Shown in pieces: positions 13,192 through 19,727 of a DNA stretch of 64,000 nt. The position numbers and the translations under genes were made by a program. Source of the stretch: Bernardetia sp. ABR2-2B. GTDB taxonomy: Bacteria > Bacteroidota > Bacteroidia > Cytophagales > Bernardetiaceae. The notes under the pieces are model-generated. The model was given only the letters and a program-made list of their open reading frames with translations, was not told the DNA's origin and did not search any database. The stretch's first letter is position 1; each line of letters begins with the position of its first letter. The stretch is from NCBI RefSeq assembly GCF_037126435.1, contig NZ_CP147020.1, positions 2,593,293 through 2,657,292 on the forward strand, in the 5' to 3' direction.

Positions 13192-13281
13192 CCAGTAAGT
13201 AGTAATCAGTTACCAGTTAAATGCCAATTTCTTATGAAAAATATAATTTTACTTTTCCTTATTTTGGCTTTTACTTCTTGT
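13192..13281 (+). repeat. duplicated leader + signal-peptide segment, copy 1
   Basis: About 90 bases covering the leader and the lipoprotein signal sequence recur, nearly identical, exactly 600 bases downstream (13792-13881). A few differences occur around ATGCCAATTT versus AGACAAATTT. Confidence 0.9.
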
Positions 13282-13782
13282 GCTACTTTTAAGAAAAATT
13301 CTTTAAATGAAAATAGGATTTCTTTATCAGAGAATGATTTAAAGAAGTTTGAAGGAACTTTTAAAATTGTAAGTAAAGATAGCTCAGAAAGAAATTTGGA
13401 CGCATCTTTACTAAAATATTATTCTTTCAGAATATTATCTCTAAAAAAAAGAGTATTTGAAGAGTATGATTGTAAAATAAATTTGAGCTTTCTTGATAAA
13501 AATCATCTAAGAGTTGAATTAATAAATGATACAACAATTATAGAATTAAGAGTTTTGAAGTTTAAAGTAAAAGAGAGTTATATAGTTCTCAAAAAAACTA
13601 ATGAATTTCGTTTTTTTATTTTAATGAATGGCATTCATACAATTAATACAAGAATAGCTTTGTTAGAAAATGAAAACTTAACTATTGATAGTATCTCTTC
13701 CTATCTTGGTTTTTTATTAATTTTACCTCTTGGTGACCACAAAAGAGAATACTACGGATTAGAATTTGAAAGAATTGAGTGA
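13234..13782 (+). CDS. lipoprotein, unknown function (shared leader, copy 1)
   Basis: The signal sequence MKNIILLFLILAFTSC ends in a lipobox, so Cys16 is probably lipidated. The 166-residue mature domain is beta-rich and Lys/Ile/Leu-rich, and matches nothing I recognise. Its first 16 residues and about 42 bases upstream are nearly identical to those of the next gene, whereas the rest of the two proteins is unrelated by eye. The two genes sit in tandem and are likely expressed similarly. Confidence 0.65.
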   Translation: MKNIILLFLILAFTSCATFKKNSLNENRISLSENDLKKFEGTFKIVSKDSSERNLDASLLKYYSFRILSLKKRVFEEYDCKINLSFLDKNHLRVELINDTTIIELRVLKFKVKESYIVLKKTNEFRFFILMNGIHTINTRIALLENENLTIDSISSYLGFLLILPLGDHKREYYGLEFERIE

Positions 13783-13791
13783 TTTCGTTTG

Positions 13792-13881
13792 CCAGTAAGT
13801 AGTAATCAGTTACCAGTTAAAGACAAATTTCTTATGAAAAATATAATTTTACTTTTCCTTATTTTGGCTTTTACTTCTTGT
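13792..13881 (+). repeat. duplicated leader + signal-peptide segment, copy 2
   Basis: Second copy of the segment at 13192-13281. It includes the same CCAGTAAGTAGTAATCAG leader and the same 16-residue signal sequence. Confidence 0.9.
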
Positions 13882-14250
13882 CAAAACTATTACCGAACAA
13901 AAGAAACAGAGAGAAACGAGATTTTGCGAATTTTTAGAGGTTTTAAAAGTGTTGAAAGCATAAATGTTAAACGCTATAAAAAAGGCTATCGTTATAGTTT
14001 TACATCTAAACCATTTGTTTATAATAAAGATGATTATAATGCTCATCAATTTGATAGTCTATTATTTGAAATAGAAGGTTTAGAAAATGCGTCTTCAAAG
14101 TTATATTTGGATGATTTTGTTGGTCTAATAATATATGATAAGGAGAAAGATGAAATAGCTATGTGGTTTGAAAATCCAGAAGGTGCTGCATTTCATGATG
14201 GACAATGGTTTAGAATCGATAACCCTCATGACATATTTCCTCGTTTTTAA
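13834..14250 (+). CDS. lipoprotein, unknown function (shared leader, copy 2)
   Basis: I place the start at the ATG at 13834, which gives MKNIILLFLILAFTSC, the same lipoprotein signal as the preceding gene. An upstream GTG-type start would translate the duplicated leader. The mature 122 residues contain SVESINVKRYKKGYRYSF and a C-terminal acidic, aromatic stretch (EIAMWFENPEGAAFHDGQW). No family is recognised. A shared bidirectional terminator follows. Confidence 0.65.
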   Translation: MKNIILLFLILAFTSCQNYYRTKETERNEILRIFRGFKSVESINVKRYKKGYRYSFTSKPFVYNKDDYNAHQFDSLLFEIEGLENASSKLYLDDFVGLIIYDKEKDEIAMWFENPEGAAFHDGQWFRIDNPHDIFPRF

Positions 14251-16896: not shown

Positions 16897-17496
16897 TTAC
16901 TTTTTCTCTTCTTCTTCCAAATATTTTTGAATTCGTTTCAAGATAAAAGCCAAAAGGCGAGGAATAAGAAGTCTGATAAGTTGAGGTAGAAGAATGGCAG
17001 AAGCGATAAAAAGACCAATTTGTAAGACTTGCTCTTGTAGTTTTTCTGAAAACTCTCCTGTTGTGATGAAAATCCAAATATCTTCTAATAAACGGTAATT
17101 GACAGCAATAATTAAGGGAAGAGTAGTCATGAATGCCCAAAAAGTAGCACTTTCTTCTAACTTCATAAAGAAAAATTTGATATTTTCTGAATGTAATTTG
17201 AAAGCATCTTCAAAACAACAAAACCAAGCTTCTCCTTTGTATCTTGTTGGGTCAGGAACAAGATTAGTAACATCTCCGTCTAGTTCAATGAGTGTTCTCA
17301 TCAAAAACTTTTCGGTACTTACGCCATCTTCCAAAACATATTCAAATTCAGTATCAATGGTATAAGCTCCATAACGCAGAATTTCGATAAAATATAAAAT
17401 AAGACGTGGCGCAGCAGAAATATAACCCAAACGAATGTCTAGCCATCTTTTAAATTGAACCCAGAAATTTTTTAAGATTATTTGCCAAGTAACCAA
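16897..17496 (-). CDS. membrane protein of the GD[IV]T cluster, unknown function
   Basis: The start is a TTG at 17496; no in-frame ATG lies upstream or near the N-terminus. It has 199 residues with two central membrane helices (WAFMTTLPLIIAVNYRLL and GLFIASAILLPQLIRLLI) and a highly charged end KRIQKYLEEEEKK. Residues 67-80 read RTLIELDGDVTNLV, followed by a helix. This matches RINLIDGDITTHI and TVVQVEGDITSYI in the two upstream genes. It is the last gene of a four-gene leftward cluster. No known family is recognised. Confidence 0.65.
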   Translation of the reverse strand: MVTWQIILKNFWVQFKRWLDIRLGYISAAPRLILYFIEILRYGAYTIDTEFEYVLEDGVSTEKFLMRTLIELDGDVTNLVPDPTRYKGEAWFCCFEDAFKLHSENIKFFFMKLEESATFWAFMTTLPLIIAVNYRLLEDIWIFITTGEFSEKLQEQVLQIGLFIASAILLPQLIRLLIPRLLAFILKRIQKYLEEEEKK

Positions 17497-17583
17497 TTTA
17501 GAAGGTAGAGTTTAGAGTTTAGAATTATGATAACTAATTCAGAATCAAAAGTACAAATATAAGAACTGAATTTTCAATTTATT

Positions 17584-18393
17584 TTATCCTATTCGCTTTG
17601 GTTTGTTTGTCAGATTATCAGCAGCACTTCCTGTATTTACTTGTTTGCCTGTTACACTAGTAAAAACAGTTCCTGCCAACCTAGAGACAGCTTGAAATAA
17701 ATATTGCCACATTCGAATTGAGGTCATGATAGAAGATTCATGTACTTCTTTAATCATTTTTTGTTCTCGTTCTGGAAAATGCAAAAAGCGTGTTGTAATA
17801 TAGGAAGTAATATCTCCCTCTACCTGAACAACTGTTTGAAGCAAAACTCGCTGCGTTCCGATTTCATGCGCTTTTCGAATAATAGAAACTTGGTCAGGAG
17901 AAAGGTTCAAATCTTTTAAGTGATTCAAGCGCATGGCAGGAAATTCATTATCACTTTCAATAGGGTCTTGAGAAGTATTTTGCAAATCTAAAAACATATC
18001 AATTACCTGTTGGCTCTGTCTAACAACACGCTCACAAAGCATCACTCGTTCGTTGAGTGCATCTACTTGGTTTTCAGTTAGTTGCACACGTTGCAATTCG
18101 ACTTTAAATTCATCTCTTTTGACTTCTGCAAAATGCTGGATTTCTAAAAAAGAATTTAGACCAGAGTTCAAATTCTTGAATTCTTTTCTTATCACTCCAC
18201 TCTCTTCTCCTATACCTGGAGTAACAGGCGAAACGGTATAAGAAGTTAATAACTCACGATAATCTGTTGCTATGTCGTGCAAAACCCAACGATGCGAACG
18301 AGGTTTGTCGCACAATAATTGGTCTTTTACGATAGTATTTACCTCTAAACGTAGAAGGTCGTTTGCTAAATTGGTAATAAAATCCTTTTTCAT
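17584..18393 (-). CDS. GD[IV]T-cluster protein, long form, unknown function
   Basis: 269 residues, soluble and mostly helical. The N-terminal LLRLEVNTIVKD matches LTNLEIKTIVGD of the next upstream gene. Near residue 195 TVVQVEGDITSYI repeats the shared core, followed by a helix (REQKMIKEVHESSIM). Between them is a roughly 160-residue insert with coiled-coil character (VDALNERVMLCERVVRQSQQVIDMFL). The C-terminus is Gly/Ser/Thr/Asn-rich and probably disordered. There is an 87-base gap to the next gene. Function unknown. Confidence 0.65.
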   Translation of the reverse strand: MKKDFITNLANDLLRLEVNTIVKDQLLCDKPRSHRWVLHDIATDYRELLTSYTVSPVTPGIGEESGVIRKEFKNLNSGLNSFLEIQHFAEVKRDEFKVELQRVQLTENQVDALNERVMLCERVVRQSQQVIDMFLDLQNTSQDPIESDNEFPAMRLNHLKDLNLSPDQVSIIRKAHEIGTQRVLLQTVVQVEGDITSYITTRFLHFPEREQKMIKEVHESSIMTSIRMWQYLFQAVSRLAGTVFTSVTGKQVNTGSAADNLTNKPKRIG

Positions 18394-18455
18394 AGAAAAA
18401 TTCTGCCCTTAGAAATGATTAAAATAAAATAAATTGATTTAAAATTAATCATTAT

Positions 18456-18887
18456 TTATTTTTCTGAATTAAGCTCTCTAAAAAGGTCAATCAGAGAAGC
18501 AATTGCCTGTATATTTCCTTGAATAATTTCGTGTCCTTTTTCTTCTTTGTGTGCATGAAAATTACGCATCCACTCATATTCATCACTTACTAGCTCTTTG
18601 CTAATATGTGTTGTAATGTCTCCATCAATTAGATTGATACGACTGTTCATGAGTTTATAATCATTGTCTCTTCGTAAAGAAACTTTTTCATCTACATCTA
18701 CATCAAAATCGCCTACAATGGTCTTGATTTCTAGGTTTGTCAAGTCCACAACACGCTCTTCAACATATTTAATAAAATCTTGGAGTTTGTCCACATTTGT
18801 TTTTTCAACACGCTCTACATTTGTGTTAGTTGGAACAACTGCACCACTTCCTCCATTTATTGGATCATTTGAATCTTCTACTGCCAT
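18456..18887 (-). CDS. GD[IV]T-cluster protein, compact form, unknown function
   Basis: 143 residues. A Gly/Asn/Thr/Val-rich, probably flexible N-terminus (residues 1-30) is followed by a helical stretch, then LTNLEIKTIVGD and RINLIDGDITTHIS, then a helix FHAHKEEKGHEIIQGNIQAI. This is the shortest arrangement of the two shared motifs and may define the minimal domain. Gaps are 62 bases downstream and 77 bases upstream, consistent with one transcript. No known family is recognised. Confidence 0.65.
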   Translation of the reverse strand: MAVEDSNDPINGGSGAVVPTNTNVERVEKTNVDKLQDFIKYVEERVVDLTNLEIKTIVGDFDVDVDEKVSLRRDNDYKLMNSRINLIDGDITTHISKELVSDEYEWMRNFHAHKEEKGHEIIQGNIQAIASLIDLFRELNSEK

Positions 18888-18964
18888 AACTTTTCAAGTT
18901 GTGAATTATAAATTGTGAATTATGAAATTTACTGTTGCTTGTGTCCTCACGAGCGAACTATTTA

Positions 18965-19489
18965 TTACCTATCCGAAACGTGTGAACCACCAAAGATTCC
19001 ACTTTTTCTTTTACATCTTTCGATAGAGTCCAAACGCCTTTCGATGAGTCCATTATCAAAAAGATACTTTATACTCTCATTGTATGATTCAATTGCCTTT
19101 GAATAGTGTGCTTCTATTTCATACATAATTCCATATTCGTTATGGATTGTACCCAAATTAACTCCCTCACACTCTAGAGCTTTGCTTAATATTTTTTTCA
19201 GCTCGTCAAATGACTTCATAGAAGACAATAAAACAGCATAATTATAATAAACAGGAGGGTAAGCAGGTGAATGTTGTAAAGCTAATTTATAACATTCTTC
19301 AGCATTTTTATACTCTTGGAATTTGTTGTGATAAATCCAACCCAAATGATTATATGCCTTACCAAAAGTAGGGTTTTCTCTAAGCATTTGTTGTAACTCC
19401 TTTGTAGCTTCACCAATTTTATTCTCTTTGATAATTAAATCAACTTTCATAAAACGCTCGTGTAAATCTGGGTCTGTTTCAAAAATCAT
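18965..19489 (-). CDS. TPR-repeat protein, first gene of the GD[IV]T cluster
   Basis: 174 residues with at least three tetratricopeptide repeats. [48 protein letters not shown] and [13 protein letters not shown] follow the TPR spacing (the Ala, Gly and Tyr positions). There is no signal peptide. TPR proteins scaffold protein-protein contacts. As the promoter-proximal gene of this cluster it could bring the three related proteins together (inference). Confidence 0.8.
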
Positions 19490-19670: not shown

Positions 19671-19727
19671 CAGACTTCCTAGTCTGAATAAATAGCATTT
19701 TACTAGTTACACAGACTAGGAAGTCTG
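19671..19727. repeat. intergenic inverted repeat
   Basis: CAGACTTCCTAGTCTG (19671-19686) and CAGACTAGGAAGTCTG (19712-19727) are perfect reverse complements. Each arm is itself a near-palindrome (CAGACT...AGTCTG). The design resembles the families at 12.2 kb and 21.2 kb. Confidence 0.7.

Follow-up and report, generated by a model that had tools for sequence, protein, structure and literature searches.

The window, a stretch of 64,000 nucleotides from Bernardetia sp. ABR2-2B (contig NZ_CP147020.1, positions 2,593,293 to 2,657,292), carries on its minus strand three adjacent genes, A, B and C, whose products appear to share one small domain marked by an Asp in a hairpin turn and a His in the following helix. 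In our reading A, B and C would be paralogous subunits of one hetero-oligomer that C anchors at the inner membrane, a proposal whose chances we regard as even. More tentatively, the complete system may be a new machine containing three or four, perhaps five, paralogues of an unnamed Asp-His domain, one or two of them membrane-anchored, with a full form coupled to a phage-like peptidoglycan peptidase and an A-B-C core kept as a set in Bacteroidota and a few Proteobacteria.

Three adjacent genes with a common core

Gene A (18456..18887, on the minus strand like every gene and domain feature of the module) encodes an acidic, soluble protein of 143 amino acids, seemingly the minimal version of the common domain, as indicated by its open reading frame, profile, relatives and structural model. 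Strand 1 carries the motif LTNLEIKTIVGD (18708..18743, residues 49-60), the GD hairpin spans 18603..18659 (residues 77-95, with DGDIT at 88-92), and His111 (18555..18557) sits on the C-terminal helix. Gene B (17584..18393; 269 amino acids; open reading frame, relatives and model) encodes a soluble protein with an A-type core and a helical insert. Its strand 1, with LLRLEVNTIVKD (18322..18357, residues 13-24), is followed by the insert (17848..18321, approximately residues 25-182) and then by the GD hairpin (17797..17847, residues 183-199, including Asp194). Both hairpins are placed by the models together with the conservation count.

Gene C (16897..17496; 199 amino acids) is recognised as a putative membrane-anchored paralogue from its open reading frame, its relatives and a profile link to B. 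The first start-type codon of its frame is TTG, and the first in-frame ATG falls at residue 66. The alignment runs from a strand-1 segment through the hairpin and a helix region to a membrane segment. The strand-1 equivalent, YTIDTEFEY (17338..17364, residues 45-53), is assigned from this alignment, not from a model; the GD hairpin (17257..17301, residues 66-80) includes Asp75, and a membrane segment is predicted at 16963..17019 (residues 160-178) from hydropathy only.

Much of this anatomy was anticipated by a preliminary description drawn from the letters of the window. The GD[IV]T strings that it quoted from three adjacent leftward genes all lie at the place and on the strand given, and the window has 206 stop-to-stop frames that reach 60 amino acids or more, of which exactly three, those of A, B and C, contain such a string. 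The pattern L-x-x-L-E-[IV]-x-T-I-V-x-D, reported for two proteins, is that of the strand-1 motifs of A and B, and it is indeed separated from the GD hairpin by some 20 residues in A and roughly 160 in B. The strand-1 equivalent of C is an addition to the motifs listed there. One copy had been described as fused to membrane helices; in C a membrane segment is predicted, but it is a single segment and not several. The genome of the window holds one copy each of A, B and C.

Sequence relationships among the proteins

Relatives of A-B-C include a larger operon, described below, that adds a protein D and a large membrane protein P. Profiles of all five families were used to search 3,962 frames drawn from the window and from the mapped loci, some of which overlap, along with 7,924 reversed or shuffled decoys; matches were taken at E ≤ 10. 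Outside its own family the A profile recovers 34 B frames (best 9.9e-7) and 11 D frames (best 2.5e-7), and nothing else; B is matched in two separate stretches whose order is correct, first strand 1 and then the hairpin plus helix. The D profile recovers 55 A frames (best 1.9e-5) and 5 B frames, the B profile 34 A (best 3.2e-5), 5 C (best 2.3e-4) and 4 D frames, and the C profile 25 B frames (best 1.2e-4) plus one further C. Decoy matches number 12 for A, all of them reversed A proteins (best 3.5e-4), and two for C (best 0.014); B, D and P have none. Single hhalign comparisons give 2.3e-7 for A-B, 4.3e-6 for B-C and 2.9e-8 for A-D. Because of these profile searches and hhalign values, A, B and D are well supported as paralogues at the sequence level, and C would belong to the family through B only. 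The paralogue family with a common core that had been suspected from the letters is borne out in this form, directly for A, B and D and by way of B for C.

Predicted folds and the conserved Asp/His pair

The A model, built from 34 sequences (mean predicted local distance difference test score, pLDDT, 77.8), consists of a helix (22-50), a strand region within residues 51-95 and a long C-terminal helix (102-141); the strands are E51-59, two short strands and the hairpin E77-85/E90-95. The B model, built from 30 sequences (pLDDT 80.5), presents H2-14 and E17-23, then the helical insert, the hairpin E183-190/E195-199 and the long helix H208-248. The elements follow one another in equal order in both models, so the cores of A and B are predicted to agree rather than to adopt unrelated folds. 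The B model, together with the A-profile matches on both flanks, therefore places the insert between strand 1 and the GD hairpin, within the compact core, as had been proposed.

Conservation was counted over distinct proteins, excluding the C proteins that score worse than E 1e-4 (L107/L146, L150, L153, L154 and L155). The hairpin Asp is present in 44 of 44 A proteins (Asp90), 44 of 44 B proteins (Asp194), 37 of 38 C proteins (Asp75) and 10 of 10 D proteins. The His of the next helix is nearly as constant (A 44/44, His111; B 43/44, His218; C 37/38, His102; D 10/10), and the strand-1 Thr follows the same trend (A 44/44, Thr56; B 43/44; C 33/38; D 10/10). At a seemingly equivalent position, P carries both Asp and His in 10 of 10 proteins. 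By eye, the uncounted C proteins of L150, L153, L154 and L155 keep the Asp.

Conservation and distribution of the module

With weak matches set aside (A in G076 and G135, B in G037, C in G120; E 0.002 to 0.009), A and B occur in the identical 28 of 148 genomes of the order Cytophagales. C accompanies them in 27, found in 24 with the window sequence and in three more by profile; in the 28th, G044, a contig end truncates C, which was identified by eye. Two further C profile matches were excluded, one in G134 interrupted by three stops (E 0.02) and, in G018, a second match falling within the B gene of that genome (E 0.0185). Two of the seven genomes of the window's own genus (G037, 97% complete; G134, 84% complete) contain no convincing A, B or C.

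The genes adjoin one another as A-B-C in 22 of the 28 genomes, with one 115-amino-acid frame separating A and B at L099. In the six others (G001, G018, G080, G081, G121 and G123) they are scattered, one or all lying elsewhere in the genome, and all are retained. That all three genes are kept though scattered is a strong sign that their products work together, and nothing else in the data speaks as strongly for a joint function as these six genomes. At all 32 loci where the three exceed their profile thresholds the order is A-B-C on a single strand, many pairs nearly touching or overlapping. Across these loci the pairwise distances for the three proteins rise together (r = 0.91, 0.82 and 0.82, with species divergence left in). 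The survey of gene neighbourhoods thus finds the order kept in relatives. The arrangement of the paralogues as a complex, put forward in the preliminary description, is something we infer from co-occurrence, the scattered genomes included.

Outside the order the module is rare. In a sample of 395 genomes from the phylum, A occurs in three, the window's own and two whose contigs are as long as those of L154 and L155; L200 and L201, on contigs of these lengths too, contribute nothing further. B occurs in 1 of 395 genomes of a class sample, again the window's own. A scan of named genomes with short patterns yields at least 33 loci. Relatives beyond Cytophagales occur in Bacteroidales and related genera, where we presume Gaoshiqia, Mangrovibacterium and Saccharicrinis to belong, in Balneolaceae, in Azospirillum, and in Plasticicumulans lactativorans, which we take to be a gammaproteobacterium and which has A-B-C alone. 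A and B are found on seven Azospirillum plasmid records; the B sequence of the window, compared with plasmids, has no match. As separate observations, G049 contains two distinct A-B-C sets (L104 and L105), one plain and one with D and P, and two loci filed as Thalassovita and Thalassobius (L130 and L134) carry A-B-C scoring like those of Cytophagales, on contigs that are probably mis-binned.

Library, structure and literature searches

The A, B and C proteins of the window exceed the cut-off of no Pfam or NCBIfam family, match no PADLOC defence model at E ≤ 0.1 and have no PHROG match below E 0.02; the A protein of L147 matches a PHROG of unknown function (E 6.6e-5). Profiles of A, B, C, D and P find nothing convincing among PDB sequences: the centrin matches of B (best E 0.0065) fall inside the helical insert, and the best match of P (E 0.0034) is a DNA polymerase. 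The best structural matches of the B model are mostly helical bundles over the insert (Z up to 7.8), and the A model finds an unnamed protein as its best viral structure (E 0.02). The scanned libraries (Pfam, NCBIfam, PADLOC and PHROG) give no function for A-D. Among the open PubMed Central papers listed by the searches, titles and starts of abstracts show nothing on the A-B-C module, which seems not to have been studied previously.

A larger operon with D, P and a peptidase

At 10 loci, among them two of Cytophagales, D, P (about 540 amino acids) and A-B-C are encoded in one direction; in one of these, L107/L146, C is cut by the contig end. In eight of the 10 a peptidase of 219-239 amino acids lies beside the set; its CHAP and PG_binding_1 domains were verified with Pfam in two of the eight and recognised by eye in six. 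The peptidase gene stands before D in seven loci and after C in L155, and is not seen in L105 and L154. The L147 enzyme, the sole one scanned in NCBIfam, exceeds the TIGR02594 cut-off and resembles phage tail lysozyme and endolysin families (PHROG 1259, E 4e-32). The presence of D, P and a peptidase in the larger operon therefore points to a cell-envelope task, which is tentative because the common A-B-C form lacks the peptidase.

P occurs in 2 of the 148 genomes of the order, with one further weak match at 5e-4. Read by eye, its terminal segment shows a GD hairpin and a His ahead of a membrane stretch, and hydropathy predicts a membrane segment in eight of the 10 P proteins. P was considered as a fifth paralogue and not accepted, since the hhalign comparison of P with C reaches only E 5.1e-4 at 31% and the profiles of P and A-D are mutually silent; membership of its C-terminal end in the same domain family is possible only. 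The N-terminal part was compared as degenerate peptidoglycan-binding repeats with the PG_binding_1 domain of the peptidase, and this assignment was dropped (E 0.11, 0.5%).

The operon could also be read as a lysis or self-killing device, in which the CHAP/TIGR02594-type enzyme, lacking any obvious export signal, would be an endolysin kept in store, C and P would open the membrane, and A, B and D would hold the device shut until a trigger such as a phage arrives. The phage-like match of the L147 enzyme, the placement of the enzyme next to D or C and the patchy distribution outside Cytophagales fit such a device, as does a patatin-like phospholipase gene (Pfam) directly after C in Gaoshiqia sediminis (L149:7508-8539), but the mapped loci of the common A-B-C form lack an enzyme of this kind. 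Nor is a phage or defence origin visible in the searches: among 10 proteins scanned with PADLOC the only match at E ≤ 0.1 is a poor one of a single C protein to LeoBC (E 0.0056); P and A of L147 and B of Azospirillum match none of 50,697 phage records; and pattern scans of viral contigs with the A, P and B alignments find nothing. One C protein matches a holin, but only weakly (E 0.017). We consider this device unlikely.

Resemblance to YbaB and partition genes

With the A model as query, Foldseek against the PDB returns YbaB proteins in rows 1, 3 and 4 at a best E of 0.59, and VIA places YbaB at ranks 1, 2, 3 and 5 with Z of 5.2-6.0 over 86-91 residues, almost the full length of those structures, and a root-mean-square deviation of 5.6-7.3 Å, tied with unrelated rows. 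The predicted fold of A is thus weakly YbaB-like. Membership in YbaB was rejected on sequence: PF02575 lists no match to A, B or C at E ≤ 10 (program filters drop most matches above 0.1), and hhalign against YbaB of the same order finds no relation for the three families compared, with 0.15 for A, 0.77 for B and 0.023 for D at probabilities of 0.1-2%. As a positive control, PF02575 matches in 56 of 59 genomes of the order, including that of the window, at another locus.

On the four Azospirillum replicons opened out of the seven matching ones (L156, L157, L198 and L199), ParA and ParB lie directly upstream in the order ParA-ParB-A-B-C, and both are confirmed by Pfam on one replicon. Together with the YbaB-like neighbours of the A model, this gives a foothold to a DNA-linked system, in which YbaB-like nucleoid or partition proteins would tether DNA to the membrane through C, aided by ParAB in Azospirillum. 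We hold it to be quite improbable: the structural matches are weak and shared with unrelated rows, the A, B and D profiles show nothing against YbaB, the A proteins are acidic (median isoelectric point 4.9), and inspection by eye revealed no ParAB in the other mapped loci.

A third and very unlikely possibility is that A and B are export-substrate chaperones holding a client until C takes over at the membrane, in the manner of EspH of mycobacterial ESX-1. EspH has a predicted structure that is partly YbaB-like, and secretion of EspE and EspF depends on it (PMC6107294). No secretion gene or common client gene was recognised beside the module in 28 genomes inspected by eye, without a systematic scan. 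The lysis, partition and export-chaperone explanations each have some supporting clue and clear contrary evidence.

Proposed assembly

In the preferred reading, a C-anchored hetero-oligomer, each subunit would contribute a helix, a small antiparallel sheet and a long helix. A would be the minimal soluble subunit, and B a second soluble subunit whose helical insert may supply extra binding surface. C would use the segment near its C-terminus to anchor the assembly on the cytoplasmic side of the inner membrane. The Asp of the hairpin turn and the His of the next helix could form a shared contact, or a ligand or metal site, repeated round the assembly. In the fuller form D, the large membrane protein P and, mostly, a TIGR02594-type peptidoglycan peptidase would be added, and the envelope task might be, for example, the gating or placing of this wall-cutting enzyme. 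The cellular location, the role of the Asp/His pair and the envelope task are all things that we infer.

Several observations weigh against this reading. The 28 genomes are mutually related and their counts are not independent, and the absence of C from the remaining 120 genomes comes from a single-sequence search, the profile having been applied in G037 and G134 only. The link between A and C is weak in hhalign (1e-3 at 21% probability), and P matches no A, B, C or D frame, nor they P, at E ≤ 10. The conserved residues have exceptions: B of L091 is without the Thr and has Gln in place of His, C of L101 has Thr in place of Asp, the Azospirillum C shows a gap at the His position, and the uncounted C of G044 (L107/L146) reads DGN by eye where the Asp would stand. 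For 13 of the 38 C proteins and 2 of the 10 P proteins, hydropathy does not predict a membrane segment. TIGR02594 exceeds its cut-off in 8 of 148 genomes, four of the 28 with A-B-C and four of the 120 others, and by the family profile the peptidase is missing from the window's own genome; the wall link therefore cannot be general. The other TIGR02594 copies have no A-D relative within about 1.5 kb, except at the known G044 locus (L204).

In conclusion, the module adds a protein domain family and a gene set that carry no function in the scanned libraries, and the larger operon and Azospirillum brasilense, a soil bacterium that is harmless, offer direct routes to its function.

Neighbouring features of the window

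Upstream of A, a gene for a TPR protein (18965..19489, minus strand; 174 amino acids; Pfam TPR) leads the cluster in the window, as first described, but it is not a member of the unit. In the 28 mapped genomes it adjoins the module in four of the five own-genus genomes that have it and at no other locus; the adjacency is confined to the genus, and the protein is therefore a local companion in Bernardetia, outside the conserved module. In the interval between the TPR gene and a TonB-like gene, at 19671-19727, CAGACTAGGAAGTCTG occurs in two copies of opposite orientation. No further copy with up to two mismatches is present in the window, where chance would yield 0.02, and a sister genome (L086) has a single copy in the interval of the same two genes. 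Elsewhere in the window, two adjacent small genes (13234-13782 and 13789-14250) encode an identical 16-residue lipoprotein-like signal peptide, MKNIILLFLILAFTSC, followed by different remainders.

Comparison with known systems

Set beside a holin-endolysin cassette, the larger operon has a peptidoglycan hydrolase in 8 of 10 cases, and a holin PHROG is matched weakly by one C protein and not by the window C. TIGR02594 and NlpC-P60-CHAP peptidases are, in PMC13055248, predicted effectors of type VI secretion systems (T6SS). The L147 enzyme falls within this family, but here the peptidase is a mere accessory of the larger operons and is missing from the genome of the window.

EspH and its relatives are likewise small proteins of similar predicted topology, several of which are proposed per machine. 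In PMC6107294, EspH interacts with EspE, and the authors propose several similar chaperones per ESX-1 machine. These proteins belong to other phyla, and no ESX genes were recognised by eye beside the module.

YbaB/EbfC (PF02575), the best structural neighbour of the A model, consists of a long helix, an antiparallel sheet and a long helix, a succession that the model of A resembles, and its homodimers pair through the sheet region (PMC2720974, PMC9610160). The predicted A protein differs from it in two extra short strands and in the Asp/His pair. The A-B-C module differs in having several paralogues per operon and a putatively membrane-anchored member, and it stands in the window's genome alongside a YbaB that this genome keeps at another locus.

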